64,000 bases of DNA. Origin: Streptomyces sp. CGMCC 4.7035 (GTDB taxonomy: Bacteria; Actinomycetota; Actinomycetes; Streptomycetales; Streptomycetaceae). This document shows, in pieces, positions 14,041-43,143 of the stretch; within the stretch, counting starts at the first letter, position 1, and each line of letters opens with the position of its first letter. The stretch lies in NCBI RefSeq assembly GCF_031583065.1, contig NZ_CP134053.1, forward strand, positions 4,898,001 to 4,962,000. Reading direction: 5' to 3'. Below the pieces are notes generated by a model. It ran no database searches, was not told the origin of the DNA, and was given only the letters and a program-made list of their open reading frames with translations. A program made the translations under genes and the position numbers.

Positions 14041-14060
14041 TGTTCTGCATCATGCGACAT
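14041..14060 (+). promoter_or_regulatory. IclR-regulon element, site A
   Basis: TGTTCTGCATCATGCGACAT, preceded by CAC, ending 21 bases before the GTG of the cupin gene at 14082. One of five matches to consensus TGTTCYGYATCRTGATACAT in this window. Position over the likely transcription start suggests repression. Confidence 0.65.
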
Positions 14061-14081
14061 CTCTCTCTACGAGGAGCCGTT

Positions 14082-14804
14082 GTGAGCGAGCACGTCGCCG
14101 AGCAGGTCGGCCTCCAAGAGACACGACGCATCCCGGCACCGGACCCGGATCGCGAACCGCTCAAGGCCAACGTCTTCGTATCCATGGCCAAGGCCGCCTC
14201 ACAGCTGACGCCCCTATTCCCCTACGACCACGCCGGCTCGATCGTCCCCTGCGGGGCCGTCCTGATCGGCGGCCCCGACAACGAGTACGGACACTTCTTC
14301 CACTGGAACGCGGTGAACGAGGTGGCCATCACCTACGGCTCCAACGAGGCGATGCTCGCCACGGGCCAGATCATGGCGACCCAGCACCTGCACGGGGTGA
14401 ACTCCTTCCTGCGAGACGAGAAGAATCCCCAGACCGAGGCGCTCATCGCCCGCTGCAGGAACTGCAAGGAAGAGCTGGTCCGTTACGACTACGACTCGAC
14501 GCCGTTCCCGCTCCCCCGTTACGACGCGGCCCGCTACGGCGAGTCCGACTCCCCGGTACGTCAGTTCCCCACCACGCTCGGCTCCATCGAGTTCGTCGAC
14601 CGACGCAACTCGGAGCAGGGCCGCACCTGTCGATCCTGCCGCCACGTCAACGACCCCTTCCCGGCGGAGATCTGGGGCTGGGCACGGACGGTGATCCAGA
14701 CCCATGCCGTGACCAGAGCCCACCACGCACTGCGCGAGGCCGCCTCCGCACAGCACGAGCAGGAGAAAGCGCGTGCCGACTCGGCGATTCGACGCACCCG
14801 GTGA
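14082..14804 (+). CDS. Cupin protein with two CxxC pairs, 3-hydroxyanthranilate-dioxygenase-like, copy A
   Basis: 240 residues from GTG 14082 (GAGGAG five bases upstream). Visible in order: PLFPYDHAGSIVPCG; FFHWNAVNEV, whose His and Glu six residues apart fit a cupin metal site; HLHGVN, a possible further His; then CRNCKEELVRYDYD and CRSCRHVNDPF, two CxxC pairs like the rubredoxin-type site of bacterial 3-hydroxyanthranilate 3,4-dioxygenase; and a final GWAR. Paralogues are at 34054 and 41288. Compared with both, copy A lacks about 18 residues between the HGVN motif and the first CxxC. It overlaps the next gene by 32 bases. Ring cleavage of an aminated or hydroxylated aromatic acid is an inference only. 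Confidence 0.65.
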   Translation: MSEHVAEQVGLQETRRIPAPDPDREPLKANVFVSMAKAASQLTPLFPYDHAGSIVPCGAVLIGGPDNEYGHFFHWNAVNEVAITYGSNEAMLATGQIMATQHLHGVNSFLRDEKNPQTEALIARCRNCKEELVRYDYDSTPFPLPRYDAARYGESDSPVRQFPTTLGSIEFVDRRNSEQGRTCRSCRHVNDPFPAEIWGWARTVIQTHAVTRAHHALREAASAQHEQEKARADSAIRRTR

Positions 14805-15867
14805 TCCGGCACTGAGCGACCTGCACGGGGACCTCGCGGAGAGAGACCTCCAGCCGCTGTGGGAGCTGAGCGGTCTGCTCACCCCCACCCCGAGGGCCAG
14901 GGCGGTGCCGTATCGCTGGCGCGGCAAGGAGCTGCGCGAACTGGGCGGACGTGCCGGGGACTTGGTACCGGTGGACCGAGGCGGTAACCGCCGGGTGCTG
15001 TCACTCAGCAATCCCGAGCTCGGGGGTGGTCCGTACGCATCCGCCCCTCTGTGGGGTGCGCTGCAGTACCTCGGGCCTCGGGAGGCGGCGCCCGCGCACC
15101 GGCACACTCCCGCCGCACTGCGCTTCGTCCTGGAGGGCGAGGGCGTGTGGACGATGGTGAACGGCGATCCGCTGCGCATGGCGGCCGGGGACCTCGTGCT
15201 CACCCCCAGTTGGACCTGGCACGAGCACCACAGCCCCGGCGACGCCCCGATGACCTGGTTCGACGCACTCGACCTGCCCTTGGTCGAGGCGTTGGAGGCG
15301 GTGTTCTTCGAACCGGGGCCCGAGCCCGCGGCGCAGTCCGCCGACCCTGCTCGTTCCGCCTCGGAGCGCCGTTTCGGAGCAGGCCCGGGCCTGCTCCCCG
15401 GTAAGCGGCCCACACGGCCGACTGCCCACTCCCCGCTCCTGCGTCACCGCTGGGCCGACACCGACCGCGCGCTGGCGAGCCAGTTCACCGTGCCGGATGC
15501 GGAGACCTCCGCCACGGGGCACGCACACGTCCGCTTCGCGGATCCGACGAGCGGCCGCGACGTCATGCCGACCATGCGATGCGAGATGCACCGCTACATG
15601 CCCGGCCACTCGGCTCCGGCCCTGCGGTGCACGGGCTCCTCACTCACCGCCGTCTTCCATGGTGCCGGTTTCGTGGTCCTCGACGGAACCCGGTACGACA
15701 TCGCCCCCGGTGACCTGATCGCCGTCCCTTCCTGGACGTCGGTGACCGTCGTCGCGGAGGAGTCGCTCGACCTGTTCACGGTCAGCGACGCCCCCGTTCT
15801 GGAGGCTCTTTCCCTGTATCGCGAGGAAGCAGCCACCGACTCCGTCGAGATCACTCCGGCCCGCTGA
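14773..15867 (+). CDS. Gentisate 1,2-dioxygenase-family bicupin, copy A
   Basis: 364 residues from GTG 14773, set by AGGAG seven bases upstream. Bicupin layout: the N-terminal cupin has PAHRHTPAALRFVLEGEGVW and LTPSWTWHEHHSPG with the metal-binding histidines (HRH, HEHH); the C-terminal cupin (MHRYMPGHSAP, then YDIAPGDLIAVPSW) is the usual degenerate second barrel. Gentisate dioxygenases are 340-370 residues, so it is full length. The reaction is O2-dependent cleavage between carboxylate and hydroxyl of gentisate or a related salicylate. It is clearly related to the gene at 27929 but diverged, so the two may differ in substrate. Confidence 0.8.
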   Translation: MPTRRFDAPGDPALSDLHGDLAERDLQPLWELSGLLTPTPRARAVPYRWRGKELRELGGRAGDLVPVDRGGNRRVLSLSNPELGGGPYASAPLWGALQYLGPREAAPAHRHTPAALRFVLEGEGVWTMVNGDPLRMAAGDLVLTPSWTWHEHHSPGDAPMTWFDALDLPLVEALEAVFFEPGPEPAAQSADPARSASERRFGAGPGLLPGKRPTRPTAHSPLLRHRWADTDRALASQFTVPDAETSATGHAHVRFADPTSGRDVMPTMRCEMHRYMPGHSAPALRCTGSSLTAVFHGAGFVVLDGTRYDIAPGDLIAVPSWTSVTVVAEESLDLFTVSDAPVLEALSLYREEAATDSVEITPAR

Positions 15868-15889
15868 AGCTCACATCTGGAGAGCCCGC

Positions 15890-16807
15890 ATGCGCATCGC
15901 CTGCTTCGACGACGACCGTATCGGTCTCGTACGGGACGGTCGTGTCCTGGACATCACCGACCGCCTCACCGCCCGCCTTGCCCCGGGTCCCGGCAGCCTC
16001 GCCCGCCGCATGGTCGCGCACTTCGCCCACATCCGTCCGCTGCTGGAGGAACTGGCCGCCGGGGCCGGCCCGTCGGCGGGACTGCCGTTGGACGAGGTAC
16101 GGCTGCGCTCCCCCATACCCGATCCCACGAAGATCGTGGCCGCTCCTGTCAACTACCGCGATCACCAAACCGAGATGAGCAAGGCCTTCCACATCAGCGC
16201 GCTCGGCTTCTGCCTCAAGTCCCCGTCCTCGCTCCTCGATCCGGGCGGCACGGTCCGCCTGCCGTACTGCGACCGTCGCTTCGACCACGAGGCCGAGTTC
16301 GCCCTCGTCGTCGGCCGCCGTGCCACTCATGTAACCCCCGAGGAGGCCTTGGACCACGTCTTCGGCTACACGGGCCTGATGGACATCACCATGCGGGGCG
16401 GCGAGGACCGGTCCACACGGAAGTCCTTCGACACCTTCACGCCGATGGGGCCCTGGCTCGTCACTCCGGACGAACTCGGCTCGCCCGACGACGTCGGCCT
16501 GGAGCTGACCGTCAACGGCGCGCCACGGCAGAAGGCCAACACCCGTGACCTCATCTGGTCGGCCGCCCACTTCCTCGCCTACGTCTCGACGGTCACCGTG
16601 CTGAAACCCGGCGACGTGATCACCACCGGCACACCGGCCGGCGTCGCCCCGATCCAGGACGGCGACGCCGTCGAGCTGATCGTGGACCGCGTCGGCCGAC
16701 TCACCGTCGGCGTCACGGCCGAAAGCGCGGTCCCCTGCCCGACCGGCGGCGCGGGGCGGGGCCCGGTACCTCCGGCGGCTCCGCGGACCGGTCTCTCGGA
16801 ACTCTAG
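15890..16807 (+). CDS. FAA-hydrolase-family protein (fumarylpyruvate hydrolase-like), copy A
   Basis: 305 residues, ATG 15890 with GGAGA upstream. Family motifs: KIVAAPVNYRDHQTEM, FDHEAEFALVVGRR (the metal-binding Glu pair of the FAH fold), GYTGLMDITMRGG, GPWLVTPDELG, then GDVITTGTPAGVAP. It follows the bicupin gene by 22 bases in the same operon, so the natural role is hydrolysis of the ring-cleavage product, with or without isomerisation. The last ~25 residues are Pro/Gly-rich and may be a drifted extension. The stop overlaps the convergent MarR gene by 4 bases. Confidence 0.85.
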   Translation: MRIACFDDDRIGLVRDGRVLDITDRLTARLAPGPGSLARRMVAHFAHIRPLLEELAAGAGPSAGLPLDEVRLRSPIPDPTKIVAAPVNYRDHQTEMSKAFHISALGFCLKSPSSLLDPGGTVRLPYCDRRFDHEAEFALVVGRRATHVTPEEALDHVFGYTGLMDITMRGGEDRSTRKSFDTFTPMGPWLVTPDELGSPDDVGLELTVNGAPRQKANTRDLIWSAAHFLAYVSTVTVLKPGDVITTGTPAGVAPIQDGDAVELIVDRVGRLTVGVTAESAVPCPTGGAGRGPVPPAAPRTGLSEL

Positions 16808-17250: not shown

Positions 17251-17260
17251 AGTCTACGAG

Positions 17261-17270: not shown

Positions 17271-17325
17271 ACTGTTTGCGCGGAGACACCGGGCCGAGGC
17301 CGACCTGGAGTGCGCTGTCAACGGC

Positions 17326-18509: not shown

Positions 18510-18537
18510 AAGAAGCGAGCCCTCGTTCCCTCGATGT

Positions 18538-22538: not shown

Positions 22539-22788
22539 TTGCCGGGCCTTCTCTGGTGTGCCGTTCGGACTGGGGAAAGTCGAGTCGGTCTGCGTCAGCG
22601 CCGGCTGCGGAGCACGGAGGCGCCTCGGCCCCGCGATCGGAGACGGGGTCAGCTGATTCCGTCGAAGGCGTTCGGGTTTCCCGACTCGGGAAGCGGTCGC
22701 AGCTTCCGCTCCCCTCTCCACGGAAGAGGTCGGGAGCCCTCCGAGGGGCGACAGTCACGCCCGGTCGTCCGCCCGTGTCGGTGGCGCG

Positions 22789-23595
22789 TCAGCCGATGCG
22801 CTCGCGCAGTTCCCCGGAGATGCGCATCACGGACGCCGTAGCCATCTCGACCCACGCCTCGTCCACGCGGGAGCGGGGCGCCGACACCGCGATCGCGGCA
22901 CGGGCACGGCCATGCCTGTCCCGCACAACCGCGCCCACCCCATAGACGTCGGCCTCGCTCTCGCCGTCACTGGTCGCATAACCGCGCTGCCGGATCGCCG
23001 CCAGCTCGGGACGGAGCACCTCGAGCGTGTCGAATGTCCGCGGGGTGAGCGCCTCGAGGTCGCCGGTCGGGTAGAGCGCTGCCAGGTCCGCCTCCGGCAG
23101 CTCGGCGAGCAGGACCTTGCCGATCGCCGTCGCGTGCGCGGGGAGGATCCAGCCGACGCCGCTTCTCGTACGCACGGCCCGCGTGCCCTCGACGCTGTCC
23201 AGGTACACCACGTCGGCCCCTCGCAAGGTGGCGAGGTGAGCCGTCTCCCCCGTCTCGTCCCGCAGTCGCACCAGCGCCTCTCGGGAGATCGCGCGGATGT
23301 CGATGTTCACGACGACGGATAGACCGATGTCGACCAAGGCCGGCCCGGGCCGGTAGCCACGGGACTCGGGGTCCCGCTCCACGAACTGGTGGTGCCCGAG
23401 AGTCGCCAGCATCCGGTGAACCGTGGAACGCGACATGCCCAGGTCGCGTGCCACCTGGTTGACGCGGATCACTTCGTGATCTTCGAACATGCGCAGCACG
23501 TGCAGCACGTTGACGACAGCCCCGATGAGCCCCGAGGAGGGCTCCACCTGAGCCGACTCGTCAAGGGCGTCGTTTTCTCCAGCCACGCAGAGCAC
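22789..23595 (-). CDS. IclR-family regulator, catabolic regulon copy 1
   Basis: 268 residues from GTG 23595, chosen by alignment with its paralogue at 43062. Winged helix: LRMFEDHEVIRVNQVARDLG, then SRSTVHRMLATLGHHQFVER. Effector domain: HLATLRGADVVYLDSVEG, WILPAHATAIGKVLLAELPE. It is strikingly similar along its whole length to the IclR at 42253. Both genes are divergent from a TAXI-like gene, with the 20-bp element 61-62 bases from the regulator start and 24 bases from the other gene. This regulator is the best candidate to bind that element. Confidence 0.9.
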   Translation of the reverse strand: MLCVAGENDALDESAQVEPSSGLIGAVVNVLHVLRMFEDHEVIRVNQVARDLGMSRSTVHRMLATLGHHQFVERDPESRGYRPGPALVDIGLSVVVNIDIRAISREALVRLRDETGETAHLATLRGADVVYLDSVEGTRAVRTRSGVGWILPAHATAIGKVLLAELPEADLAALYPTGDLEALTPRTFDTLEVLRPELAAIRQRGYATSDGESEADVYGVGAVVRDRHGRARAAIAVSAPRSRVDEAWVEMATASVMRISGELRERIG

Positions 23596-23655
23596 GTTAT
23601 CCCAGGATTTTCCAGCCTTGCTCAGGCTTCCAAAAAGGGCCACTCTCCGAAACAC

Positions 23656-23675
23656 TGTTCCGCATGATGCGTCAT
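23656..23675 (+). promoter_or_regulatory. IclR-regulon element, site B
   Basis: TGTTCCGCATGATGCGTCAT preceded by ACAC. It lies 61 bases from the IclR start (23595) and 24 bases from the leader ATG (23700), the same geometry as site E. Confidence 0.7.
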
Positions 23676-23699: not shown

Positions 23700-23792
23700 A
23701 TGTTTCAGCGTCTGGACTTGCCCACTGCGTCATCACCACCGCTTCTTCTCCGTCCGGACCTGCCCAGGCCTGTTCGCAGGACTCCCTCATGA
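23700..23792 (+). CDS. Possible 30-residue leader peptide
   Basis: ATG 23700 is preceded by GGAGGAG with 5-base spacing, the best ribosome site nearby. The frame encodes 30 residues (MFQRLDLPTASSPPLLLRPD...), rich in Pro, Leu and Arg, and ends TGA at 23790 overlapping ATG 23789 of the next gene. It may only serve to couple translation. In the paralogous operon at 43167 the equivalent place is taken by a DUF4242 gene. Confidence 0.4.
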   Translation: MFQRLDLPTASSPPLLLRPDLPRPVRRTPS

Positions 23793-24661
23793 CCGGCGAG
23801 CTCGAGCGGCCGGAGGGCTGGGGCGACTTGCACCAGATCCGTGGTCTGTTCGATCAGGGGCTGCGCCGGCTCGTGTCGAAAGACGTGCGGTACACGATCC
23901 GGGCGGGGCGCGGAGGTCTGGACGAGACCGCCGCACTCTTCACCGGGGAAGCAGATATCGCCGTCGTCACGCCGGCTGCGGCGCTGCGCCTCCTCTATCG
24001 TTTCGGGGACCTCAAGGGCTTGTTCGCTCTGGGGGTGATCCCACGCCGCGGCAGTCTTGTCGTCGCGGCCGACGCCACTCTGGGGCTCGACGCCGTCGCC
24101 GATCTCGCGACGCACTCTGCTCGCATCACCGTCGCGACGTGCGCCGACGACGGCGTCAGCCTCGTGGGATTCGCCGTGCACAGAGCGTTGCGCATGGCCG
24201 GGGTGGGTGGCGGTGACGTGGACTTCGTCTACGACGAGCATCCTGCCGCCCGCTACGCCTCAGGCGCGGCAGACGTCGTGATCCACGACCCGATGGCCAC
24301 GCCCGATTGGCGGGCAGTCGTGGCCGAGCGGCAGGTGAGGTACCTGCCCTGGGGCGATCGGGTGCTGCACGGCTTCGCCGCGCAGGGCTGGCTCCCCCGA
24401 ATCGCGCGAGCGGGTCAACTCCCCCCGCTGATAGACGACTTGCCCGCACTCGACTGCTCCGACTTCGCGGTGCTGTGCCGCGCGGACCTGGACGAGGGAC
24501 TCGCCCGCCTGACTGCCCGATACCTGGCCCGGGGCTGCTGTCCTGCCGAAGCCGCCGCAGTGGCACGCACCCCGCTTCCGCTGCATCCGGGGGCCGCCCG
24601 TGCCTACGCCGAACTCGTCGCCGACGAAGCCGTCGCCGACGTATCTCTGGGGAGCCGATGA
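23789..24661 (+). CDS. TAXI-like solute-binding-fold protein without signal peptide, copy B
   Basis: 290 residues from ATG 23789, coupled to the leader by ATGA. The fold signature is that of TAXI/TRAP receptors: YTIRAGRGGLDETAALFTGE, ADIAVVTPAAALRLLY, then VATCADDGVSLVGFAVHRAL. No signal peptide, lipobox or TRAP membrane gene is present, so the protein should be cytoplasmic. The C-terminal part contains VRYLPWGDRVLHGFAAQGW and SDFAVLCRADLDEGLARL, shared with the copy at 43441. I infer intracellular binding of a pathway acid, perhaps as sensor, carrier or enzyme. An NMT1-type enzyme-like role is an alternative. Confidence 0.65.
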   Translation: MTGELERPEGWGDLHQIRGLFDQGLRRLVSKDVRYTIRAGRGGLDETAALFTGEADIAVVTPAAALRLLYRFGDLKGLFALGVIPRRGSLVVAADATLGLDAVADLATHSARITVATCADDGVSLVGFAVHRALRMAGVGGGDVDFVYDEHPAARYASGAADVVIHDPMATPDWRAVVAERQVRYLPWGDRVLHGFAAQGWLPRIARAGQLPPLIDDLPALDCSDFAVLCRADLDEGLARLTARYLARGCCPAEAAAVARTPLPLHPGAARAYAELVADEAVADVSLGSR

Positions 24662-25686
24662 TGTCCGATTCCGTCCAGCGGCCGGGGCCGCCTGCCTCGT
24701 GCGAGACCGAACTCCTCGTCGTGGGCGCCGGCCCCGCCGGTCTCTTCGCCTGCTATTACGCGGGGATGAGGGGGCTCGAAGTGACCCTCCTGGACAGCCT
24801 GCCCCACCTCGGCGGCCAGGTGGCCGCCCTCTACCCGGACAAGGAGATCTTCGACGTCGCCGGGTTCCCGGCCGTCACCGGTCGTGAACTGGTCGACCGG
24901 CTGACTCGACAGGCTGAGAGCGCCGCACCGTCCGTCGTGCTCGGGGAAGGCGCCGTAGACCTGCGCCGGGACGACGCGGACGCGGTCACCGTCACCACCG
25001 ACGCGGGACGCGTCATCCGCGCGGGTGCTGTGCTGATCACCGCCGGCATCGGCCGCTTCACCCCGCGACCCCTGCCCGCCCTGGACGGGTTCACCGGCGA
25101 CGGCGTCCACCACCTGGTCGCTCCTCCCCACGAATACGCCGAGCGCCAGGTTGTGATCGTCGGCGGCGGCGACAGTGCCGTCGACTGGGCCAACGCCCTT
25201 GCCCCGCACGCGCGTCAGGTGACACTCGTGCACCGCCGGGTCAGGTTCCGCGCCCACGAGCATTCGGTGAGCCGACTCATGGACTCCCCGGTGCGGGTCC
25301 TCACCAACAGCGAGATCGCCGACGTACACGGTGCCGAGTCGCTCAAGGCCGTGACCGTACGCGACTGCGGAACCCAGGGGCTGGAGACGGTCGAGGCGGA
25401 CGTCCTGATCCCCGCCCTGGGCCACATCGCCTCGCTCGGCCCCCTCACCACGTGGGGACTCACGCTCGACAAGCAGCAGATCCAGGTGGACACCGACATG
25501 CGCACCGGTGTGGACCGCGTCTACGCCGCCGGTGACATCACCACCTACCCAGGCAAGGTCCGGCTGATGGTCGTGGGCTTCGGCGAGGCCGCCACCGCGG
25601 TCAACAACATCGCCGTACGCCTGCGGCCCGACGAGGACCTCTTCCCCGGCCACTCAAGCGAACGCCCACCGATCCCGACCCCCTGA
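24658..25686 (+). CDS. Thioredoxin-reductase-like ferredoxin-NADP+ reductase
   Basis: 342 residues, ATG 24658 (or 24661) overlapping the preceding stop, GGGGAG upstream. FAD site: LLVVGAGPAGLFACYYAG, then LLDSLPHLGGQVAALYPDKE. NADP site: VVIVGGGDSAVDWANALAP, then VHRRVRFRAHE. FAD closing motif: VYAAGDITTYPGK. It lacks the CxxC of true thioredoxin reductases, which matches the YumC-type ferredoxin reductase family. It is followed by a ferredoxin gene, so the pair should supply electrons to an oxygenase; no such terminal oxygenase is evident in this operon. Confidence 0.85.
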   Translation: MMSDSVQRPGPPASCETELLVVGAGPAGLFACYYAGMRGLEVTLLDSLPHLGGQVAALYPDKEIFDVAGFPAVTGRELVDRLTRQAESAAPSVVLGEGAVDLRRDDADAVTVTTDAGRVIRAGAVLITAGIGRFTPRPLPALDGFTGDGVHHLVAPPHEYAERQVVIVGGGDSAVDWANALAPHARQVTLVHRRVRFRAHEHSVSRLMDSPVRVLTNSEIADVHGAESLKAVTVRDCGTQGLETVEADVLIPALGHIASLGPLTTWGLTLDKQQIQVDTDMRTGVDRVYAAGDITTYPGKVRLMVVGFGEAATAVNNIAVRLRPDEDLFPGHSSERPPIPTP

Positions 25687-25699
25687 AGGAGGACGCCTC

Positions 25700-26029
25700 A
25701 TGGGTTACGTGATCAACGACAAGTGCATCAACGAACTCGACGGCTCCTGCGTCGACGTGTGCCCCGTGGACAGCATCTACGAGGGACTCACCAAGCGCTA
25801 CATCAATCCCACCGAATGCATCGACTGCGGGGCCTGCCTGCCCGAGTGCCCGGTCGACGCCATCGCCACGCCCAAGAAGGCCGACCCCACCTGGGCCCAG
25901 GACAACGCCGAGTTCTTCTCGGTGACCCTGCCCGGGAAGGACGCCCCGCTGGAGAGCCCCGGCGGCGCGTACGGAACCGGCCCCATCGGAGTGGACACCC
26001 CACTCGTCGCCAACTGGAACAAGGAGTGA
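25700..26029 (+). CDS. Seven-iron-type ferredoxin
   Basis: 109 residues, ATG 25700 with AAGGAGG 8 bases before. The first cluster has Cys 9, 17 and 21 (CINELDGSCVDVCP); the second is the classical CIDCGACLPECP. The long spacing in the first set fits the [3Fe-4S]+[4Fe-4S] ferredoxins of actinobacteria. The ~50-residue C-terminal tail is Gly/Pro-rich. It is placed between its likely reductase and an FAD monooxygenase, although class A flavin hydroxylases take electrons directly from NAD(P)H and would not need it. Confidence 0.9.
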   Translation: MGYVINDKCINELDGSCVDVCPVDSIYEGLTKRYINPTECIDCGACLPECPVDAIATPKKADPTWAQDNAEFFSVTLPGKDAPLESPGGAYGTGPIGVDTPLVANWNKE

Positions 26030-26031
26030 CC

Positions 26032-27216
26032 GTGCGACACGTCCCACTGCTCATCATCGGAGGCGGCATAGGTGGCATGGCCACCGGCCTGGCCCTCGCG
26101 CAGGCCGGCTTCGAAGTTCATATCGTCGAGCAGGCACCTGAGTTCGCCGAGATCGGCGCGGGCATCCAGCTCGCCCCGAACGCCATGCGGATCCTCGACT
26201 CCCTCGGCGTCCTCGACGCCATCGACGAGGTGGCCGTACGCCCGCGCAATCTGGTGTTCATGCACGCCGACACCGGCAAGCACCTGACGACGATCGACTT
26301 CGGTGCCGCCTTCCGCGAGCGCTACGGGCAGTCGTACAGCGTGCTGCACCGCGGCGACCTGCTCGACGTCCTGCTTGCCGCCTGCCGCGAGCACCCCAAG
26401 GTCACCCTGGAGAACAACCGCCAGGTCGTCGACATCGAGGACCACACCACCACCGCCGTCGTCCACTTCTCCGACGGTGAGAGCTACCGCACCGACGCCC
26501 TGATCGGCGCCGACGGCCTGAAGTCCCGCACCCGGCAGCTCCTCTCCGACGACCGTCCCATCACGGACGCGTACGTCGCCTACCGCGGTGCGCTGCCCAT
26601 GAACCAGATCGCCTTGCCCGTCGAGCAGGACGACGAGATCATCTGGATCGGCCCCAACAGGCACCTGGTCCAGTACCCGATCCGGCGCGGCGAGCTCTAC
26701 AACCAGGTCGCCGTCTTCCGCAGCTCCCAGTACACGCCGGAGATCGAACACACCGACCAGTGGGGCGGGCCGGACGAACTCGAGCAGGCCTTCGCCACGT
26801 CATGCGAGCAGGTCCGCGCATCAGTGAAGATGTTCAACACGTCCAGGCGCTGGCCGATGTACGACCGAGAGCCCCTGGACAACTGGACCCGCGGGCGCAT
26901 CACCCTGCTCGGCGACGCCGCACACCCCATGTTCCAGTACCTGGCCCAGGGGGCCTGCCAGGCCATCGAGGACGCCGAATGCCTGGCCCGGCAGCTGACC
27001 AAGCACAGCGGCGACATCGATGAGGCCTTCGCCGCCTACCAGGCGGAACGGATCCCCCGCACCGCGCTCGTGCAGCGCGTCGCCCGCGGCTGGGGCCAGG
27101 TCTGGCACGCCGAGAACGGCTCCACGATCTCGGCCTTGCGCGACCGCGTCTTCGGACGCCGCAGCGCCGACGACTACACCGACCTGGACTGGCTGTACCA
27201 GGCGTTCGCCGCCTGA
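26032..27216 (+). CDS. FAD-dependent aromatic hydroxylase (3-hydroxybenzoate 6-hydroxylase/salicylate hydroxylase type)
   Basis: 394 residues from GTG 26032, AAGGAG five bases upstream. Class A flavoprotein hydroxylase: LLIIGGGIGGMATGLALAQA (dinucleotide fold), VLHRGDLLDVLLAAC, DALIGADGLKSRTR (DG motif), LLGDAAHPMFQYLAQGACQA (GD motif, FAD ribityl contact). The length and the FQYLAQGACQAIED stretch resemble 3-hydroxybenzoate 6-hydroxylase, which makes gentisate. This suits the dioxygenase, isomerase and hydrolase genes that follow. The exact substrate cannot be fixed from sequence; salicylate is the main alternative. Confidence 0.85.
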   Translation: MRHVPLLIIGGGIGGMATGLALAQAGFEVHIVEQAPEFAEIGAGIQLAPNAMRILDSLGVLDAIDEVAVRPRNLVFMHADTGKHLTTIDFGAAFRERYGQSYSVLHRGDLLDVLLAACREHPKVTLENNRQVVDIEDHTTTAVVHFSDGESYRTDALIGADGLKSRTRQLLSDDRPITDAYVAYRGALPMNQIALPVEQDDEIIWIGPNRHLVQYPIRRGELYNQVAVFRSSQYTPEIEHTDQWGGPDELEQAFATSCEQVRASVKMFNTSRRWPMYDREPLDNWTRGRITLLGDAAHPMFQYLAQGACQAIEDAECLARQLTKHSGDIDEAFAAYQAERIPRTALVQRVARGWGQVWHAENGSTISALRDRVFGRRSADDYTDLDWLYQAFAA

Positions 27217-27236
27217 CCCGACCTACGAGGACCGTG

Positions 27237-30583: not shown

Positions 30584-30617
30584 TGCCGACGATTCCCCCT
30601 GCCCACCGGAGTACCCG

Positions 30618-31268
30618 ATGAAGATCACACATTTCGGACACGCCTGCGTACTGGTCGAGATCCAGCGCAACGGCAGTACCGCCCGGCTGCTGTTCGATCC
30701 GGGCACCTACTCGAACGGCTTCGAGGACGTACGCGACCTCGAAGCCGTATTGATCACGCACGAGCACCCTGACCATGTCGACGTCGAGCGCCTGGGACCG
30801 CTGCTCGGTGCGAACCCCGCGGCCCGGCTGATCGCAGACCCGGGCAGCAGCACGCTGCTGCGGGAAGCCGGTCTGCAGCACGAGATCGTCGGCAAGGACG
30901 ACACCGTCACCGTCGCCGAAGTGCCGATCCAGGTGCTGGCCGGCGATCACGCGGTCATTCATCCCCAACTGCCCTGCACCCACAACAACGGCTACCTGGT
31001 CGACGGCCGGCTCCTCCACCCCGGAGACGCCTTCGCTCTCCCGCCGCAGCCGGTGGACGTACTGCTGCTGCCGACCGGCGGGCCGTGGATGAAGGTGAGC
31101 GAGGCGATCGACTACCTGCGTGCCGTGGCCCCTCGCATCGCGATCCCCATCCACCAGGCAGGACTTGCACCCGTCCATCAGCAGCTGCACCAGCAGCTGT
31201 TCCGCAATCTGGGCCCCGCGCAGTGCAGCGTCCAGGTTCTGGAGCAGGGTACGGCGACCGCTGTGTGA
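30618..31268 (+). CDS. Metallo-beta-lactamase-fold hydrolase
   Basis: 216 residues, ATG 30618 with CCGGAG-type site upstream. The signature ITHEHPDHVDVERL is the HxHxDH metal motif; KITHFGHACVLVE at the start and the DGRLLHPGD Asp region match the UlaG/YcjW-like MBL subgroup. The substrate is unknown. As the last gene of the gentisate operon it may open a lactone or thioester side product. Confidence 0.8.
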   Translation: MKITHFGHACVLVEIQRNGSTARLLFDPGTYSNGFEDVRDLEAVLITHEHPDHVDVERLGPLLGANPAARLIADPGSSTLLREAGLQHEIVGKDDTVTVAEVPIQVLAGDHAVIHPQLPCTHNNGYLVDGRLLHPGDAFALPPQPVDVLLLPTGGPWMKVSEAIDYLRAVAPRIAIPIHQAGLAPVHQQLHQQLFRNLGPAQCSVQVLEQGTATAV

Positions 31269-33293: not shown

Positions 33294-33313
33294 ATGTTTC
33301 ATGATACGGAACA
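33294..33313 (-). promoter_or_regulatory. IclR-regulon element, site C
   Basis: Read leftward: TGTTCCGTATCATGAAACAT. It points toward RidA (start 33054), but 240 bases away instead of the 19-24 seen at the other sites, the gap being filled by the IS256 remnant. The divergent PPOX operon starts at 33491. Confidence 0.65.
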
Positions 33314-33490
33314 TTGACCCGTTCCACGAAACGCTAGCAGTTGATTTTCCGCTCAGGCAAGCATCCGGAACGCAGCCGAGATTCCCATGCCGACCTCTTG
33401 CCGATACACCAAGCATGGTGTCACCCTGACGGCCACTGTTCCGGACAGTGCGACATGCGCGGGACCACGAGCAGACATCGAAGGAGCCGG

Positions 33491-34054
33491 ATGGCCGTCA
33501 AAGAGCCGACGCTGGAAGAGGTCGAGAAGTCGGTGTGCGAACTGCTACAGAACGAACCCGTCTGCACGCTCGCGACTCTCGCTGCCGACGGCTACCCGTC
33601 CACGGCGGCGATGCACTTCGCGCCCGACGGGCTGATCATCTACATGCACACGTTCGTCTACACCCGAAAACTCGCGCACATCCGGCGCGACCCGCGCGTC
33701 AGCTATTCGGTCCACTACGACCCGCCGGGCGGATACGACGAGCGCACCGAAAGTCGCTCGATCCAGGTGCAGGGCCGCGGATACGTGGTCACCGACCCGG
33801 AGGAGATCGCCCGAGCCGTCGACGTCAGCATGCGCAAGTCCCGGCACGAGGCGCAGGACACCTTGCTGAACAACGTGAAACCGCCCGAGGCGCAAGGTCA
33901 ACAGGTGTTGCTGCGCGTCGAAGCCGTACAGGCCCTGTGGGCGGACTTCCGGGTACGCCTGTTGTGGCGCCAGATGCTGGAGTTCGGCTCGGACGGGCGA
34001 AGCCTCACCGGAATGCAGCCATACGACACCGTCATCGGACGAAGGACCAAGTGA
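33491..34054 (+). CDS. Pyridoxamine-phosphate-oxidase-fold (PPOX) flavin protein
   Basis: 187 residues, ATG 33491 with AAGGAG four bases upstream. The split-barrel pattern is CTLATLAADGYPSTAAMHFA, KLAHIRRDPRVSYSVHYDPP, then IQVQGRGYVVTDPEEIARAV. Members bind FMN, F420 or haem. Its TGA overlaps the ATG of the cupin gene by one base (TGATG), so the two should be made together. I infer a redox partner or cofactor-binding role for the cupin protein, without direct evidence. Confidence 0.75.
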   Translation: MAVKEPTLEEVEKSVCELLQNEPVCTLATLAADGYPSTAAMHFAPDGLIIYMHTFVYTRKLAHIRRDPRVSYSVHYDPPGGYDERTESRSIQVQGRGYVVTDPEEIARAVDVSMRKSRHEAQDTLLNNVKPPEAQGQQVLLRVEAVQALWADFRVRLLWRQMLEFGSDGRSLTGMQPYDTVIGRRTK

Positions 34055-34740
34055 TGAGCATCCCCGACCTCTCGACAACGCGGCGTATCGCACCGCCCGA
34101 GCCCGACGTCGAGCCGTTGAAGGTGAACGTGTACGAGCAGATGGCCAAGGCCGCCTCGCAGCTCGCGCCGCTGTTCCCGTACGATCACGCCGGCGCGATC
34201 GTGCCGTGCGGCAACGTACTGGTCGGCGGGCCCGGACAGTCCTACGGGCAGTTCTTCCACTGGAACACCGTCTCCGAGGTCGTCGTCTGCTACGGCTCCC
34301 GCCACTCGCCGCTGGCTCCGGGGCAGATCATCGCCACCCAGAACCTCCACGGTGTCAACTCCCGTCTGTCCGACGAGACCGACAGCGACGCCGCCGCCGT
34401 CCTCGTCGTCACCCAGCACCAAGCAGAAAAGGGCGACCAGACCGAGGCCATGATCGCCAAGTGCACCGGATGCCATGCGGAACTGCTGCGGCACGAGTAC
34501 GACGCGAGTCCGCCGTCCGCACCCCACAATGACGTGCGCCAGTTTCCCACCACCGTCGGGTCGGCCCGCTTCGCCGAGCTGCGCAACACCGACGAGGTCC
34601 GCACCTGCCGGGAGTGCGGGCTCGTCAACGACCCGTTCTCCGTCGTTACTTGGGGCTGGGCCCGGCAGGTCGCCCAGACCACCGCCGTTCAAGCCGCCCA
34701 ATCGGCACTGCGCCAGGCGGCATCGGTCCCCTCCACATAG
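34054..34740 (+). CDS. Cupin protein with two CxxC pairs, copy C
   Basis: 228 residues from ATG 34054. It aligns with copies A and D over its full length: PLFPYDHAGAIVPCGNVLVG, FFHWNTVSEVVVCYG (His and Glu six apart), QNLHGVN, then VVTQHQAEKGDQTEAMIAKC leading into CTGCHAELLRHEYD, CRECGLVNDPF and WGWARQVAQTTAV. The two CxxC pairs probably hold a structural iron or zinc, as in bacterial 3-hydroxyanthranilate dioxygenase. Upstream PPOX overlap and downstream DHA2 transporter (34902) suggest one operon. Confidence 0.65.
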   Translation: MSIPDLSTTRRIAPPEPDVEPLKVNVYEQMAKAASQLAPLFPYDHAGAIVPCGNVLVGGPGQSYGQFFHWNTVSEVVVCYGSRHSPLAPGQIIATQNLHGVNSRLSDETDSDAAAVLVVTQHQAEKGDQTEAMIAKCTGCHAELLRHEYDASPPSAPHNDVRQFPTTVGSARFAELRNTDEVRTCRECGLVNDPFSVVTWGWARQVAQTTAVQAAQSALRQAASVPST

Positions 34741-38068: not shown

Positions 38069-39502
38069 TCACACACTGTGCACCACGTGCTTGATCTCCT
38101 GGAACTCCGCCAGCGCCCGGGGCCCGTTCAGGCGCCCGACCCCGCTCTGTTTGAAGCCGCCCTCCTCCATCTGGTCCCGGATGACGCCCCAGCCGTTGGT
38201 CCACACGGTTCCCGCGTCGATCTCGCGGGCGACCCGCAGCGGCCGGTCCACGTCGCGCGTCCAGACCGAGGCCGCGAGGCCGTACTCCGTCGCGTTGGCG
38301 CGGGCGATCGCCTCTGCCTCGTCCGTGAAGACCTCGAAGGTGGCCACTGGACCGAAGACTTCGCGCTGGACGAGGGGCGCCGACACATCGTCGACCTCGA
38401 CAAGGCTCGGGCGCAGGAACGCGTCCGCGCCCTTCGCGCTGGCGAGTCCGCCGCGTACCAGGATCTTCCCGTACGACGCCGCGTCGGCGACCAACGCGTC
38501 GATACGCCGGGCCTGTTCGCGGTCGATGACGGGTCCCATACCGGTGTCCGGGTCGTCACCGGCGCCGACGACGACCTCCTTCAGCGCTGCCGTCATGCGG
38601 TCCCTGAGCTCGTCCGCGATGCCCTCCTGGGCGAGGATGCGGCTTCCCGCCATGCAGAACTGCCCGGCGAAGGTGGTGACCGCCGCCGTGAGTACGGGAA
38701 CCACGGCATCGAGGTCCGCGTCGTCGAACACGATCATCGGGGACTTGCCGCCGAGTTCGAGCGAGCAGGGCTTGAGGTGGCGGGCGGCCTCCGCCATGAT
38801 CAGCCGACCGACGGCGGTGGAGCCGGTGTAGCTGATCACGTCCGTGCCAGGGTCCGACACCAGCAGCGGCGCACCCGAGTTCCCGGACTCGGTGAAGGCG
38901 TTCAGCACCCCGGGTGGCAGCGACGCGGTCTCCGCGATGATCTCGTAGAGCAGCCCGTTGGTGAGCGCGGTCTGCGCGGGCATCTTCATGGCCACGGTGC
39001 AGCCGGCCGCGAGCGCCGGAGCGAACGAGCGCACGGCCAGGATCACCGGGGAGTTCCACGGCACGATCACCGCCGCCACGCCGACGGGCTGATGGAGCGT
39101 CATGGAGTAGGAGCCGGGGGCGAGTTCGGCCGCGCGGCCGGTATCCGTGAGGGCGAGCGCGGCGTTGTAGCGCAGTTTGGGAATGGTCGAGTCGATCTCC
39201 ATGGCGGCGTCGGCGAGCTTCTTGCCGTTCTCGCGGGAGAGCAGAGCCACCAGTTCGCCGCGGCGCTGGTCCATCCGGTCCGCCATCTCCAGCAGCGCCC
39301 GGGCCCGCAGCCGACGGTCGCGCGCCCAGCCGGTGTCCGTGAAGGCCCGGCGCGCCGCGTCGATCGCCGCCCGCGCGGTCACCTCGCCCGCGTCGGCGAA
39401 CGTACCGATGACCCGGCCGGTCGCGGGATTGCGTGACTCGCCGATCGCATGGCCGTCGCGCCATGCGCCGTCGACGAGATTGCGTGCGTACGGGAGAGTC
39501 AT
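38069..39502 (-). CDS. NAD(P)-dependent aldehyde dehydrogenase (benzaldehyde type)
   Basis: 477 residues, ATG 39502 in an ATGA overlap with the alcohol dehydrogenase stop. Landmarks: VAAVIVPWNSPVILAVRSFA, SYTGSTAVGRLIM, CSLELGGKSPMIVFDDADLD with the general-base Glu, FAGQFCMAGSRIL with the catalytic Cys, and EVFGPVATFEVFTDEAEAIA. Last gene of the leftward operon cupin D, small cupin, ADH, ALDH. Its natural role is oxidation of an aromatic aldehyde to the acid feeding the hydroxylase at 26032; 2-aminomuconate semialdehyde is the main alternative if the cupins open an aminated ring. Confidence 0.9.
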   Translation of the reverse strand: MTLPYARNLVDGAWRDGHAIGESRNPATGRVIGTFADAGEVTARAAIDAARRAFTDTGWARDRRLRARALLEMADRMDQRRGELVALLSRENGKKLADAAMEIDSTIPKLRYNAALALTDTGRAAELAPGSYSMTLHQPVGVAAVIVPWNSPVILAVRSFAPALAAGCTVAMKMPAQTALTNGLLYEIIAETASLPPGVLNAFTESGNSGAPLLVSDPGTDVISYTGSTAVGRLIMAEAARHLKPCSLELGGKSPMIVFDDADLDAVVPVLTAAVTTFAGQFCMAGSRILAQEGIADELRDRMTAALKEVVVGAGDDPDTGMGPVIDREQARRIDALVADAASYGKILVRGGLASAKGADAFLRPSLVEVDDVSAPLVQREVFGPVATFEVFTDEAEAIARANATEYGLAASVWTRDVDRPLRVAREIDAGTVWTNGWGVIRDQMEEGGFKQSGVGRLNGPRALAEFQEIKHVVHSV

Positions 39503-40638
39503 GAACTCGCGCCCTTCGGTACGTCGCCGAAGCGGATCACCGGCTTGATCGTGCGGCCGGAGCGGGCGTCCGCCACGGCTTTGTCGAGCTCCTCCGGCGC
39601 GTAGAACCGCACGAACTTCTCGTACGGAAGCCTGCCTTGGCGTGCGAGGCGGACCAGCGCGGGGATGAAGGTGATGCGGTCGCTGGCGCCCTCGGCCACT
39701 CCGCGGATCGTACGGCCGTCGATGAGGGAGTTGATGTCGAACGAGGCGCGGCTGCCGGCCGCCGGGGCGCCGATCACGGCGACGGTTCCGTATGTCTTGA
39801 CGGCGGTGGCCGCCAACTCCAGGAGCGACGGTACGCCGGTCGTCTCGACGACGTAGTCGACTCCCGCACCACCGGAGATCTCGGCGAGGCGCTTGCCGAG
39901 GTCCTCGCTGCCGCTGTCGATGGTGTGGGTGGCGCCCAGTTCGGTGGCCAGGGCGAGGCGGGAGGGGACGAGATCGGCGACGACGATGTCCCAGGCGCCG
40001 CTCAGCCGCGCGGCCATGACGGCGGACAGACCGACGGCGCCGGCGCCGAACACCGCGACCGTCTCACCGGGGCCGGGCCGAAGCAGGTTCAGGACGGCGC
40101 CGGCTCCGGTCTGGATGCCACAGCCGACCGGCGCGAGCAGAGCCAGTTCCTCATCGTCGGCGGCATCGACGCGCACGACGCTCTGCGCCGACACGAGCGC
40201 GTGCCGCGCCATGGACGACTGGCCGAAGAACAGGCCGCCGAGCGGCATCCCGTCCTCGGTGTGGACGGGCGTGGACCCGTCCGCCCGTGCGGCGCCGAAG
40301 TTCAGCGGGAAGTACGTCCCGCACCGCGTCGGTGCGCCGGTTCGGCAACTGTCGCACCGGCCACACGAGTTGAACGAGAGAACGACCTTGTCTCCGGGGC
40401 TGACGCCGACGACGTCGGCGCCGACGGCCTCCACCACACCGGCTCCCTCGTGACCGAGGACCGCAGGCAGCGGGGTGGGCAGGCGCCCGGCGAGAACGGA
40501 GAGGTCGGTGTGGCACAGCCCGGTGGCGACGAGTCGCACCAGGACCTCGTCGGCGCGGGGGTCGTCGAGCACGACATGTTCCCAGTGGAACGTGTCCTCT
40601 CCGGCCCGTGCCACGGCGGCTGTTGTCGGTGTGGGCAA
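39499..40638 (-). CDS. Zinc-dependent aryl-alcohol dehydrogenase
   Basis: 379 residues if started at TTG 40638; GTG 40614 is an alternative and neither has a strong ribosome site. Catalytic zinc: GLCHTDLSV and GHEGAGVVEAVG. Structural zinc: CGRCDSCRTGAPTRC. Cofactor fold: VAVFGAGAVGLSAVMAARLS. The long class III-like form with NFGAARADGSTPVHTED resembles benzyl and aryl alcohol dehydrogenases. With the next gene it would turn a benzylic alcohol into the acid. Confidence 0.85.
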   Translation of the reverse strand: MPTPTTAAVARAGEDTFHWEHVVLDDPRADEVLVRLVATGLCHTDLSVLAGRLPTPLPAVLGHEGAGVVEAVGADVVGVSPGDKVVLSFNSCGRCDSCRTGAPTRCGTYFPLNFGAARADGSTPVHTEDGMPLGGLFFGQSSMARHALVSAQSVVRVDAADDEELALLAPVGCGIQTGAGAVLNLLRPGPGETVAVFGAGAVGLSAVMAARLSGAWDIVVADLVPSRLALATELGATHTIDSGSEDLGKRLAEISGGAGVDYVVETTGVPSLLELAATAVKTYGTVAVIGAPAAGSRASFDINSLIDGRTIRGVAEGASDRITFIPALVRLARQGRLPYEKFVRFYAPEELDKAVADARSGRTIKPVIRFGDVPKGASS

Positions 40639-40748
40639 GGGGGCTCTTCTCTCTGTACGGAACCGAAGGGTGAGGGCGGAGTGCGGGTCCGGGGGGCGCC
40701 GCTCCCCTGCGGCGACCCACACACGTCGGCGCCCGCCGGCACGGGCCC

Positions 40749-41291
40749 TCAGGCAGGGACCGGGCTCGACCAGCCGAACGCGGCGAGGTCGATCTGCGGA
40801 TGCACGGCCTTGCACGAACCGCAGGTACGGACGGCCTCGTCGGCCGAGAAGCGCGCGCACGCGGCGGCGTAGAACTGTGAGGGCGACACCTCGTTGTCGT
40901 GCTCCCACTCGTAGCGGTGCAGCTCGGTGCGGCACTCCGGGCAGTACCAGACCGCGCCCTGGCGCCCGGCCTGCAGCGCCATGTAACGGATCACTGCTCC
41001 CGCCTCGACGGGGACGATCTGGTGCGGGGTGCCGGCGGGGATGTAGACGTGATCGCCGATGGACATCCGGAACCGGTTCACCGAACTGTCCCGGAGATGC
41101 ACGTCGCTGCTGCCGGACAGCTGGCTCAGGACGGTGTCCTTCTCGCAGATGAGATGGAACGGCTGAGGCAACTCGTTGTGCGACAAGTAGAGTTGGGGGT
41201 CCGTGTCCGCCGGAAGCACAGCCGCGTCGGCATAACTGCCCAGCTCCGAAGCGACCTTGAGCGCGTGGAGCATCCGTCGTCGGTTTGTCAT
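40749..41291 (-). CDS. 3-hydroxyanthranilate 3,4-dioxygenase-like cupin
   Basis: 180 residues from ATG 41291, GGAGG upstream, overlapping the copy D stop (ATGA). Cupin part: FHLICEKDTVLSQLSG, then MSIGDHVYIPAGTPHQIVPV. C-terminal metal part: WYCPECRTELHRYEWEHD and VRTCGSCKAVHPQIDLAAFG, the two CxxC pairs that hold the second iron in bacterial 3-hydroxyanthranilate dioxygenase. The length is that of the bacterial enzyme (about 175). The usual HxxxxxE metal motif of cupin 1 is not evident, so activity is uncertain. It may be a partner of copy D. Confidence 0.65.
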   Translation of the reverse strand: MTNRRRMLHALKVASELGSYADAAVLPADTDPQLYLSHNELPQPFHLICEKDTVLSQLSGSSDVHLRDSSVNRFRMSIGDHVYIPAGTPHQIVPVEAGAVIRYMALQAGRQGAVWYCPECRTELHRYEWEHDNEVSPSQFYAAACARFSADEAVRTCGSCKAVHPQIDLAAFGWSSPVPA

Positions 41292-42031
41292 CGGCCGACC
41301 TCCTCGAGTGCGGGCTGCGCGGATTCCCGCAGCGAGTGGTAGGCGGCGTTCACCGCGGTGGTCTGGGCGACCTGGCGGGCCCAGCCCCACCGTGCGCCCG
41401 GGAACGGCGTGTTGACGTGGCCGCACTCCTTGCAGGTGCGCCCTTCGTCGGTGTTGCGGATGTCGGCGAACGTCGCCGAGCCGACCGTCGTGGCGAACTG
41501 GTGGACCGGGTCGTCGGCGCTGCCGTACCGGGCGGCGTCGTAGCCGGGCAGCCCGAACGGTGTGGCGTCGTACTCGTGCCGCACGATCTCCGCCTTGCAG
41601 TTCTGACAGCGGGCGATCAGCGCCTCGGACTGGTCGCCCTCCTCCGACTGGTGCTGGGTGACCACGATGACGGCGTAGGCGCCCGCTTCCTTCTGGTCAC
41701 GGAGGTAGGAGTTGACGCCGTGCAGGTTCTGGGTCGCCATGATCTGCCCGGTCGCCAGCATGGACTGGTGGGCTCCGTAGACGACGACGACTTCGTTGAC
41801 GGTGTTCCAATGGAAGAAGTGCCCGTACTCCGCCTCAGGGCCGCCGATGAGGACGTTGCCGCACGGCACGATGGCGCCGGCATGGTCGTAGGGGAACAGC
41901 GGCACCAGCTGCGCCGCGGCCTGAGCCATGCGCTGGTACACGTTGACCTTGAGTGGTTCGCGGTCGGGGTTCGGCGGAGGGATCTGACTCGTCTCCTCCA
42001 GCAGCACCGTCTCGGTATTGGGCTCGCTCAT
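41288..42031 (-). CDS. Cupin protein with two CxxC pairs, copy D
   Basis: 247 residues from ATG 42031, GAGGGG five bases upstream. Motifs as in copies A and C: PLFPYDHAGAIVPCGNVLIG, FFHWNTVNEVVVVYG, QNLHGVNSYLRD, YAVIVVTQHQSEEGDQSEAL, CQNCKAEIVRHEYD, CKECGHVNTPF, WGWARQVAQTTAV. IclR-regulon site D lies 19 bases before the start codon. First gene of the operon with the small cupin, ADH and ALDH. The shared C-terminal layout with the small cupin suggests an old duplication of a dioxygenase ancestor. Confidence 0.65.
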   Translation of the reverse strand: MSEPNTETVLLEETSQIPPPNPDREPLKVNVYQRMAQAAAQLVPLFPYDHAGAIVPCGNVLIGGPEAEYGHFFHWNTVNEVVVVYGAHQSMLATGQIMATQNLHGVNSYLRDQKEAGAYAVIVVTQHQSEEGDQSEALIARCQNCKAEIVRHEYDATPFGLPGYDAARYGSADDPVHQFATTVGSATFADIRNTDEGRTCKECGHVNTPFPGARWGWARQVAQTTAVNAAYHSLRESAQPALEEVGR

Positions 42032-42050
42032 GGCAGCCCCTCTCATAAGG

Positions 42051-42070
42051 GTGTATCACGATACGGGACA
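42051..42070 (-). promoter_or_regulatory. IclR-regulon element, site D
   Basis: Read leftward: TGTCCCGTATCGTGATACAC, preceded by CAC. Nineteen bases separate it from the copy D start codon. Confidence 0.7.
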
Positions 42071-42202
42071 GTGATCGCCATTCTGATACCAAAATCGGCA
42101 GCATGGCAAGCGTCGAGCGACAGGAAATATGGCCGCCCGAAAGGTCTACCCCTGGCGCGGCGAGATCCAAAAGCACAGGTCACACAGGGTGCACAGACGG
42201 CA

Positions 42203-42234
42203 ACGGCCGCCCCGGAAATCTCCGGGGCGGCCGT
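42203..42234. terminator. 14-bp perfect hairpin terminator
   Basis: ACGGCCGCCCCGGA and its complement around AATC, 19 bases beyond the stop of the leftward IclR gene. Confidence 0.9.
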
Positions 42235-42252
42235 CGGTCGACGCGAGGGACG

Positions 42253-43062
42253 TCAGTCGATACGCTCGCCGAGCTCCTGCGCGATGCGCGCGGTGGCAGC
42301 CGCCGCGACGGCGATCCACTCGTCGTCGACCCGGGACTGGGGCGCCGTGGTGGCTATGGCCGCGCGGGCGCGCCCGCGCTTGTCACGGATGACCACGGCA
42401 ACCGCGCTCACATCGGCCTCGCTCTCGGCGTTGTTGATCGCGTAGCCGCGGCGCCGGACCTCGGTGAGCTGCTTACGGAGTTCGTCGCGGGTCTGGGGCG
42501 CACGCGACGAGGGGGCCTGCAGGCCCTCGGAGGGGTAACGGACCACGAACTCCTCCTCACTCAGCTCGGCGAGGAGGGCCTTCCCGGCCGCGGTCGCGTG
42601 GGCGGGCAGCGTCCAGCCGGTACGACTGCCGGTGCGTACGACCTGATTACTCTCGACGCTGTCGACGTAGAGCACCTCCGCCCCGCGGAGAGTCGCGAGG
42701 TGCACGGTCTCGTCGGTCTCATCGCGCAGTCGAACGAGCGCACCGTGGGCGAGCGCCCGGATGTCCATGTTCGCCACGACCGACAGACCGATATCGACGA
42801 GCGCGGGCCCGGGCTTGTAGGCGCGGGAGAACTCGTCCTGCGCCACGAAGTGATGATGGCTGAGCGTGGCCAGCATGCGGTGGACCGTCGAGCGCGACAG
42901 CCCCATGTCGCGAGCCACCTGATTGACCCGGATCATCTCGTGGTCCTCGAACATGCGCAGGAGCCGCAACACGTTGTCGACAGCCCCGATCAAGCCGGCC
43001 GGACGGTCGACGGAACTGGGCTCTTCGCTGTTGGTCCCCGGTTTCTGATCCACGCGGAGCAC
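42253..43062 (-). CDS. IclR-family regulator, catabolic regulon copy 2
   Basis: 269 residues from GTG 43062, aligned with the start of the paralogue at 23595; both have GGA(A)AATCC and a CTCCGCG/CTCTGCG-type context there. Winged helix: LRMFEDHEMIRVNQVARDMG, then SRSTVHRMLATLSHHHFVAQ. Effector domain: HLATLRGAEVLYVDSVESNQ and WTLPAHATAAGKALLAELSE. Divergent from DUF4242/TAXI genes, with site E between. Having two such regulators for one operator type raises the question of different ligands or of heteromers. Confidence 0.9.
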   Translation of the reverse strand: MLRVDQKPGTNSEEPSSVDRPAGLIGAVDNVLRLLRMFEDHEMIRVNQVARDMGLSRSTVHRMLATLSHHHFVAQDEFSRAYKPGPALVDIGLSVVANMDIRALAHGALVRLRDETDETVHLATLRGAEVLYVDSVESNQVVRTGSRTGWTLPAHATAAGKALLAELSEEEFVVRYPSEGLQAPSSRAPQTRDELRKQLTEVRRRGYAINNAESEADVSAVAVVIRDKRGRARAAIATTAPQSRVDDEWIAVAAAATARIAQELGERID

Positions 43063-43123
43063 AGTAGCGCAGGGATTTCCAGTCTCTGCACCCCTTGCGA
43101 TTACGTTCCAATGAACGGGACAG

Positions 43124-43143
43124 TGTTCTGTATCGTGATACAT
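43124..43143 (+). promoter_or_regulatory. IclR-regulon element, site E
   Basis: TGTTCTGTATCGTGATACAT, the closest match to consensus. It lies 62 bases from the IclR start and 24 from the DUF4242 ATG, matching site B geometry. Confidence 0.75.

Follow-up and report, generated by a model that had tools for sequence, protein, structure and literature searches.

Which regulator, if any, ties together the scattered catabolic operons that share a short DNA element in the chromosome of Streptomyces sp. CGMCC 4.7035? The question was raised by an earlier note on a stretch of 64,000 nucleotides (contig NZ_CP134053.1, positions 4,898,001 to 4,962,000; hereafter the window, with a guanine + cytosine content of 68%), which described a 20-bp element at five promoters and proposed that a pair of paralogous IclR-family proteins binds it. 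The element is real and far beyond chance, and its copies are most likely bound by sister IclR repressors encoded among the targets, so that the locus would be a further instance of a familiar type of gene control. Positions given below are window coordinates unless stated otherwise; negative numbers lie upstream of the window.

All five sites lie where the earlier note had placed them, but they fit its consensus unequally (no mismatch at 43124, one at 33294(-), two at 14041 and at 42051(-), and four at 23656, which goes unmatched when up to three are allowed). With up to three mismatches, that consensus identified five places in the genome, namely four of the noted sites and one located 22 kb upstream of the window, compared with none for the reversed control, and it gave no match in 100 dinucleotide shuffles. 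A sixth site in the window, 33434-33456(+), had been overlooked, together with four outside it, which brings the number of elements to ten (six in the window and four ahead of it, the farthest at a distance of 36 kb):

14038..14060 (+): element A, 21 bases ahead of GTG 14082 of the copy A gene of the protein family called ORF252; CACAAT lies 6 bases upstream
23653..23675 (+): element B, preceding a leader open reading frame (ORF; ATG 23700), the NMT1/TAXI-like gene B and a catabolic operon
23635-23657 (-): inverted partner of element B, 13.6 bits
33294..33316 (-): element C-minus, strong, without a gene start at the usual distance
33434..33456 (+): element C-plus, 34 bases ahead of ATG 33491 (PNPOx-family gene, then ORF252 copy C)
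42051..42073 (-): element D-minus, 19 bases ahead of ATG 42031 of ORF252 copy D; CAGAAT lies 6 bases upstream
43121..43143 (+): element D-plus, 23 bases ahead of ATG 43167 of an SCO4226-like (DUF4242) gene, between that gene and the IclR gene D
43103-43125 (-): inverted partner of element D-plus, 13.2 bits
-36211 (-), -36193 (+), -23003 (-), -21930 (+): the four upstream elements

The spacing of 19-24 bases to a start codon, noted earlier for four of the sites, was confirmed: the distances read 21, 24, 19 and 23, taking the short leader ORF as the gene following 23656 and ATG 42031 as the start following 42051. The region is a diverged duplication. Operon B (22.8-31.3 kb) is copied as B' at about -36 to -28 kb, and module D (40.7-44.8 kb) as D' at about -24.3 to -20.6 kb, with 62-93% protein identity between the matching genes.

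From the local sites we built an improved consensus, CANTGTYCYGNANNRTGMNNCAY, which replaces that of the earlier note. Its good fit to these sites is partly by construction, since it came from the region's own copies, and the informative part of the scan is therefore the scarcity of matches elsewhere. At no more than one mismatch, 10 matches were found in the 8.09-Mb chromosome, all inside 80 kb, whereas the reversed control gave a single match. Allowing two mismatches raised the count to 17, of which 7 lay outside the region (control: 7), and allowing three gave 170, compared with 125 for the control; the weaker matches therefore represent background. Among 294 other genomes of the genus, 79 contained one or two matches with at most one mismatch and none contained more than two. 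Thus, the many equally good matches elsewhere that would speak against a regulon were not seen in the whole-genome pattern scans. One match outside the cluster (genome position 5695342-5695364; two mismatches) scores 21.2 bits, as high as the weaker foreign sites described below, and lies directly after a terminator-like hairpin. No IclR gene was seen in the 501 bases read there, nor does any listed HTH_IclR match adjoin it, and this match is probably due to chance.

The element also recurs outside this genome. A separate scan of genome contigs for relatives of ORF252 yielded nine foreign loci (numbered with the prefix L), found through the shared gene, and a weight matrix made from the ten local sites was applied to their 179,719 bases. 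This revealed 17 sites of at least 20 bits, all at promoters, in 8 of the 9 loci, with Pseudofrankia, Embleya, Nocardia and Streptosporangiaceae among the sources. They are located directly upstream of ORF252, the divergent gene of L051, DUF4242, a TAXI-like gene, an oxidoreductase gene or an IclR gene. Only one further site reached 17.3 bits (before a TAXI-like gene in L049); the remainder scored below 15. Since L046 and L047 are almost identical, they are counted only once as evidence. All seven foreign loci with a linked relative of the IclR proteins in question carry the element, and L048 showed neither element nor linked IclR gene in the DNA examined. In L051 (Nocardia) the strong site faces not ORF252 but the divergent ORF 9374-9904(-). 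This second ORF contains two CxxC pairs and appears HAO-like by eye.

The regulator genes themselves provide a further link. Contrary to the earlier description of a pair, four paralogous IclR genes were found, each duplicated copy having its own (B and D in the window, B' and D' upstream), with 56-84% identity among the four. Both proteins encoded in the window belong to the IclR family according to their N-terminal (HTH_IclR) and C-terminal (IclR_C) domain matches:

22789..23586 (-): IclR-family regulator B, inferred start, ORF open to 23655; HTH_IclR 1.2e-13, IclR_C 1.5e-42
42253..43053 (-): IclR-family regulator D, inferred start, ORF open to 43233; HTH_IclR 2.8e-13, IclR_C 1.3e-39

The gaps of 61-62 bases reported earlier between element and IclR start were nearly reproduced (60 and 61 by recount from GTG 23595 and 43062), but codons lying 9 bases inside these have an equal or better claim to be the starts. 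These inner codons (GTG in B, D and D', ATG in B') align across the four paralogues, so the true gap may be about 70 bases. In all four a TANNGT box lies 7 bases before the aligned codon (23586 and 43053(-) in the window), and the IclR transcripts may therefore be leaderless.

A family search of the genome, in which 150 of 500 candidates were scored, gave 56 HTH_IclR matches that passed the cut-off, including 19 with E values no higher than 3.6e-12; the element adjoins four of the genome's matches. In a phylogenetic tree from which matches shorter than 190 residues were left out (2 of 27 rows), the 11 IclR proteins encoded at motif loci (7 foreign, 4 own) formed one clade with support of 100/100, separate from 14 other rows of the same genome (13 different proteins, two rows being one protein). 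The segment SRSTVHRML is present in all 11 proteins of the motif loci and in none of 16 other matches.

The position of the element within the promoters is equally regular. We compared 12 promoters, i.e. 11 of the ORF252/PNPOx type (the PNPOx-ORF252 pair representing row C; L048 is absent) and that of the divergent gene of L051. All of them have a CANAAT-like hexamer at the same offset, its end exactly 6 bases from the start of the element, and it is complete in ten, matched at 5/6 positions in one and at 4/6 in another. The summed score was 69/72 (N counted as a match) vs 23.6 on average and 36 at most in 5000 random draws, and at other offsets none reached 40/72. CTTG is found 24-25 bases before the hexamer in 11 of the 12 promoters. 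If CTTG and CANAAT represent -35 and -10 boxes, which would be 17-18 bp apart, transcription is predicted to start at the first bases of the element. Repression is the action that we infer, because of this predicted position and the precedent of GylR. The latter, an IclR-family repressor of Streptomyces clavuligerus, has one binding region directly after a -10 region (PMC9732521); it differs in governing glycerol genes, and the likeness concerns the position of the binding region.

The architecture of the element fits published IclR operators, as described in the survey by Suvorova and Gelfand 2021 (PMC8222616), to which the following comparisons refer. There, the group-1 operator is the palindrome GKTYCRYW3-4RYGRAMC, tandem sites are spaced 18-22 nt, and a three-box type contains a central TGRAACAN1-2TGTTYCA pair. 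The core of our element is GTTCYGY-ATS-RTGMKAC, and its positions 5-21 correspond to the group-1 palindrome; all ten elements match 13-16 of the 17 positions of this degenerate consensus, for which 13/17 is common by chance. Often near regulator genes, an inverted second site is mirrored about a CASTG centre, 20 bp away. This partner is strong (at least 20 bits) at B' (24.4), L046/L047 (26.4) and L049 (20.5), and scores 12-15 bits at B, D, D', L044 and the ORF252 sites of L046/L047; when random flanks were joined to CASTG, the 99th percentile was 6.1 and the 99.9th 12.1 bits. With the group-1, tandem and three-box operators the element shares its half-sites, the W3 spacer and a place close to the gene start, and possibly also the spacing of 20 bp between centres and the central pair of group 2. 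Unlike in the published operators, the second inverted site is strong at several elements here, which makes four boxes in all, and one operator type would serve four paralogues in one genome.

In the table of the same paper (Table 1, PMC8222616), the most similar operator is GTTCMRYATMRTGAWS, that of NpdR, the IclR-family protein of Rhodococcus opacus for 2,4,6-trinitrophenol, which agrees with the ten elements at 11-15 of 16 positions. NpdR belongs to another pathway, and the likeness is one of operators alone. GenR of Corynebacterium glutamicum (3-hydroxybenzoate, gentisate) is of the same family and has a similar pathway (PMC8222616). As a namesake for the element it was rejected: its operator is ATTCC-N7(5)-GGAAT, and neither ATTCC nor GGAAT was seen by eye in the ten elements.

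These observations suggest the following mechanism. The element would be the operator of a small IclR subfamily, which has four diverged paralogues on this chromosome. Near the regulator genes, the second inverted copy sharing the CASTG centre would create two palindromes 20 bp apart, whose central boxes can be read as the IclR group-2 motif and for which a dimer of dimers would be the natural occupant. Without inducer, the regulators would keep transcription of the gentisate/3-hydroxybenzoate-type catabolic genes and of ORF252, and probably also that of the IclR genes themselves, from starting or from getting past early elongation; their release would be brought about by an aromatic acid or an intermediate of the pathway. 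Binding, repression, the inducer and overlapping use by the four paralogues are predictions from sequence. The sites, their specificity within the genome, conservation and geometry, and the linkage to IclR genes are direct results of the computation. The idea of an IclR regulon put forward in the earlier note is supported by the genome pattern scans, the foreign recurrence, the single IclR clade and the fit to published operators, with binding as the inferred step. Taken as a whole, an operator of an IclR repressor subfamily at catabolic promoters is very probably the best explanation.

Several points weigh against it. The relaxed pattern CANTGTYCYGNANNRTGMNNCAY was derived from the sites themselves, and the CANAAT pattern was picked after looking. 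The sites in the duplicated segments and in the near-identical L046 and L047 are not independent. The published consensuses are loose when used by themselves: on one strand of the 124-kb region, group-1 at 13/17 occurs at 152 places, and the NpdR operator at 502 places at 11/16 and at 91 at 12/16. Of the 11 ORF252-type promoters, 9 have a weak inverted partner or none (-5.5 to 8.8 bits), and at the DUF4242/TAXI promoters no equally clear -10 box was seen. The Nocardia locus L051 carries the element without a linked IclR gene. Finally, an ATG located 2 bases past element 33294(-) opens an ORF of merely 16 codons, and the nearest plausible gene (RidA/L-PSP family, inferred start 33054(-)) lies about 240 bases off.

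The regulators might instead be activators or dual regulators acting on the same element (cf. GenR of Corynebacterium, PcaU and PobR). This seems unlikely, as a classical activator site lies upstream of the -35 box, and here four window sites have the element ending 19-24 bases ahead of the start codon, and at 12 promoters it begins 6 bases past the -10-like hexamer. A further point against repression is that the IclR proteins of aromatic pathways include activators and dual regulators; in addition, the three-box arrangement recalls PcaU (PMC8222616). Much less probable still is a promoter motif for an alternative sigma factor, e.g. the product of the sigma-70 family gene 36387-37397(-). Two copies of this gene in the region and the fixed orientation and distance of the element relative to genes would suit such a motif. 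We rejected it, since separate -35/-10-like boxes lie directly upstream of the element, that sigma gene has no listed match in the nine foreign loci, the structure fits IclR operators and the best NCBIfam matches of the gene are RpoD/SigB-type factors. That the sites are passive relics, alike merely through recent copying of B/B' and D/D' (some sites are indeed not independent, the element before ORF252 D/D' is no better kept than bases -41 to -19, with 18/23 each, and 19 downstream bases are well kept at the other two pairs, with 17/19 and 15/19), is the least probable reading of all, as the element is 21/23 identical in B/B' and in D/D' before DUF4242 vs 13/23 and 12/23 at -41 to -19, and recurs in the Pseudofrankia, Embleya, Nocardia and Streptosporangiaceae loci.

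The IclR operator is in itself an ordinary kind of regulatory element, found here in an unusually duplicated setting and with an uncharacterised target family, ORF252. This unannotated family has four copies in the genome, one of them outside the window:

14082..14804 (+): ORF252 copy A, 66% identity to copy D (alignment A1)
34051..34740 (+): ORF252 copy C, 67% identity to copy D, overlapping the end of the PNPOx-family gene; inferred start
41288..42031 (-): ORF252 copy D, no Pfam/NCBIfam match above the cut-off

The structure model of ORF252 is closest to 3-hydroxyanthranilate 3,4-dioxygenase, and the modelled fold agrees with that of this enzyme family. At the sequence level, no profile match to solved chains of this enzyme and no Pfam or NCBIfam match above the cut-off was found, the weak TFIIS zinc-ribbon match having E 0.014. 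In an alignment of 52 sequences (the window protein and 51 of 108 listed relatives), H74, E80, H104, C142, C145, C200 and C203 are invariant; they may be counterparts of the metal-site residues of the dioxygenase and of its two CxxC pairs. ORF252 is possibly a ring-cleaving target family. It was detected in one of 295 genomes of the genus sample and in one of 396 of the phylum sample, in both cases the genome studied here, and its closest foreign relative is from a Streptomyces (96%).

The genes behind the elements are as follows:

14773..16807 (+): gentisate 1,2-dioxygenase-like cupin and FAA hydrolase, behind ORF252 copy A
23789..31268 (+): catabolic operon B, a single transcript as inferred from gene order, with genes for NMT1/TAXI-like protein, FAD/NAD oxidoreductase, ferredoxin, 3-hydroxybenzoate 6-monooxygenase-like protein, class II aldolase family protein, gentisate dioxygenase-like cupin, FAA hydrolase, maleylpyruvate isomerase-like protein and metallo-beta-lactamase fold protein
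33491..34054 (+): pyridoxamine 5'-phosphate oxidase-family gene, the first behind element C-plus; PNPOx_N 2.5e-15
38069..40935 (-): genes for an aldehyde dehydrogenase and a zinc alcohol dehydrogenase, perhaps on a shared transcript behind ORF252 copy D, judging from gene order only
43167..44787 (+): SCO4226-like gene, NMT1/TAXI-like gene D and ABM-domain gene

The 3-hydroxybenzoate 6-monooxygenase-like protein, the gentisate dioxygenase-like cupins, the FAA hydrolases and the mycothiol-type maleylpyruvate isomerase-like protein point to a gentisate/3-hydroxybenzoate kind of pathway. Any assignment of its substrate is tentative, because the monooxygenase-like protein and cupin A both score under the NCBIfam equivalog cut-offs. 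The dioxygenase-like ORF of operon B (within 27020-29023) was assigned through its 48-49% identity to the cupin at 14773.

More broadly, the locus could represent an unrecognised actinobacterial aromatic-degradation regulon, with ten operators, four cross-acting IclR paralogues, a new class of cupin ring-cleavage dioxygenases (ORF252, with a 3-hydroxyanthranilate dioxygenase-like fold) as core target, and operators of up to four boxes at the transcription start; we advance this fuller picture tentatively, as a possibility somewhat short of probable. No description of this regulon was recognised among the papers listed in the literature searched, outside which most subscription journals lay. 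The interest of such a system would be that scattered, duplicated operons are linked by one control code, and that an unannotated family, predicted to be ring-cleavage dioxygenase-like, is set in an apparent aromatic-acid pathway. Four paralogues with the same recognition-helix segment and near-alike operators would offer a natural case for cross-talk vs division of labour, and the region could serve as a test case for the three-box/tetramer model of IclR binding.

The TAXI-like genes 23789-24661(+) and 43426-44403(+) have NMT1_3 matches under the cut-off. No obvious export signal or signal peptide was seen by eye in their products, and no TRAP permease family was found among the 50 window ORF entries covered by the Pfam scan; the proteins may be cytoplasmic with a binding-protein fold. 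The ORF ahead of TAXI-like gene B (23700-23792(+)), which comprises 30 codons and starts with MFQ, has an equal length in B' (-36146), and its stop overlaps an ATG of the TAXI-like gene. It possibly encodes a coupled leader peptide.

Some minor features of the region were also recorded. Behind the RidA-family gene, an aromatic-acid MFS transporter is apparently broken across frames (31368-32427(-)), and a second MFS transporter is seemingly split over several frames (20497-22721(-)), which reflects either a pseudogene or sequencing errors. The RpoD/SigB-type sigma factor gene 36387-37397(-) is present a second time at -27226 to -26207(+), with 77% identity. Neither the Rfam nor the tRNA scan of the window gave a match. 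The adjacent ORFs 2806-3903(+) and 4043-5950(+) share about 97% identity across 218 residues and represent a recent local duplication. The duplicated modules are followed downstream, at 50529-61755, by two Mutator-family transposase genes and one of the IS4/5 type; the idea that the 54 residues before the RidA start are a transposase remnant was unsupported on comparison with the window's two Mutator transposases.

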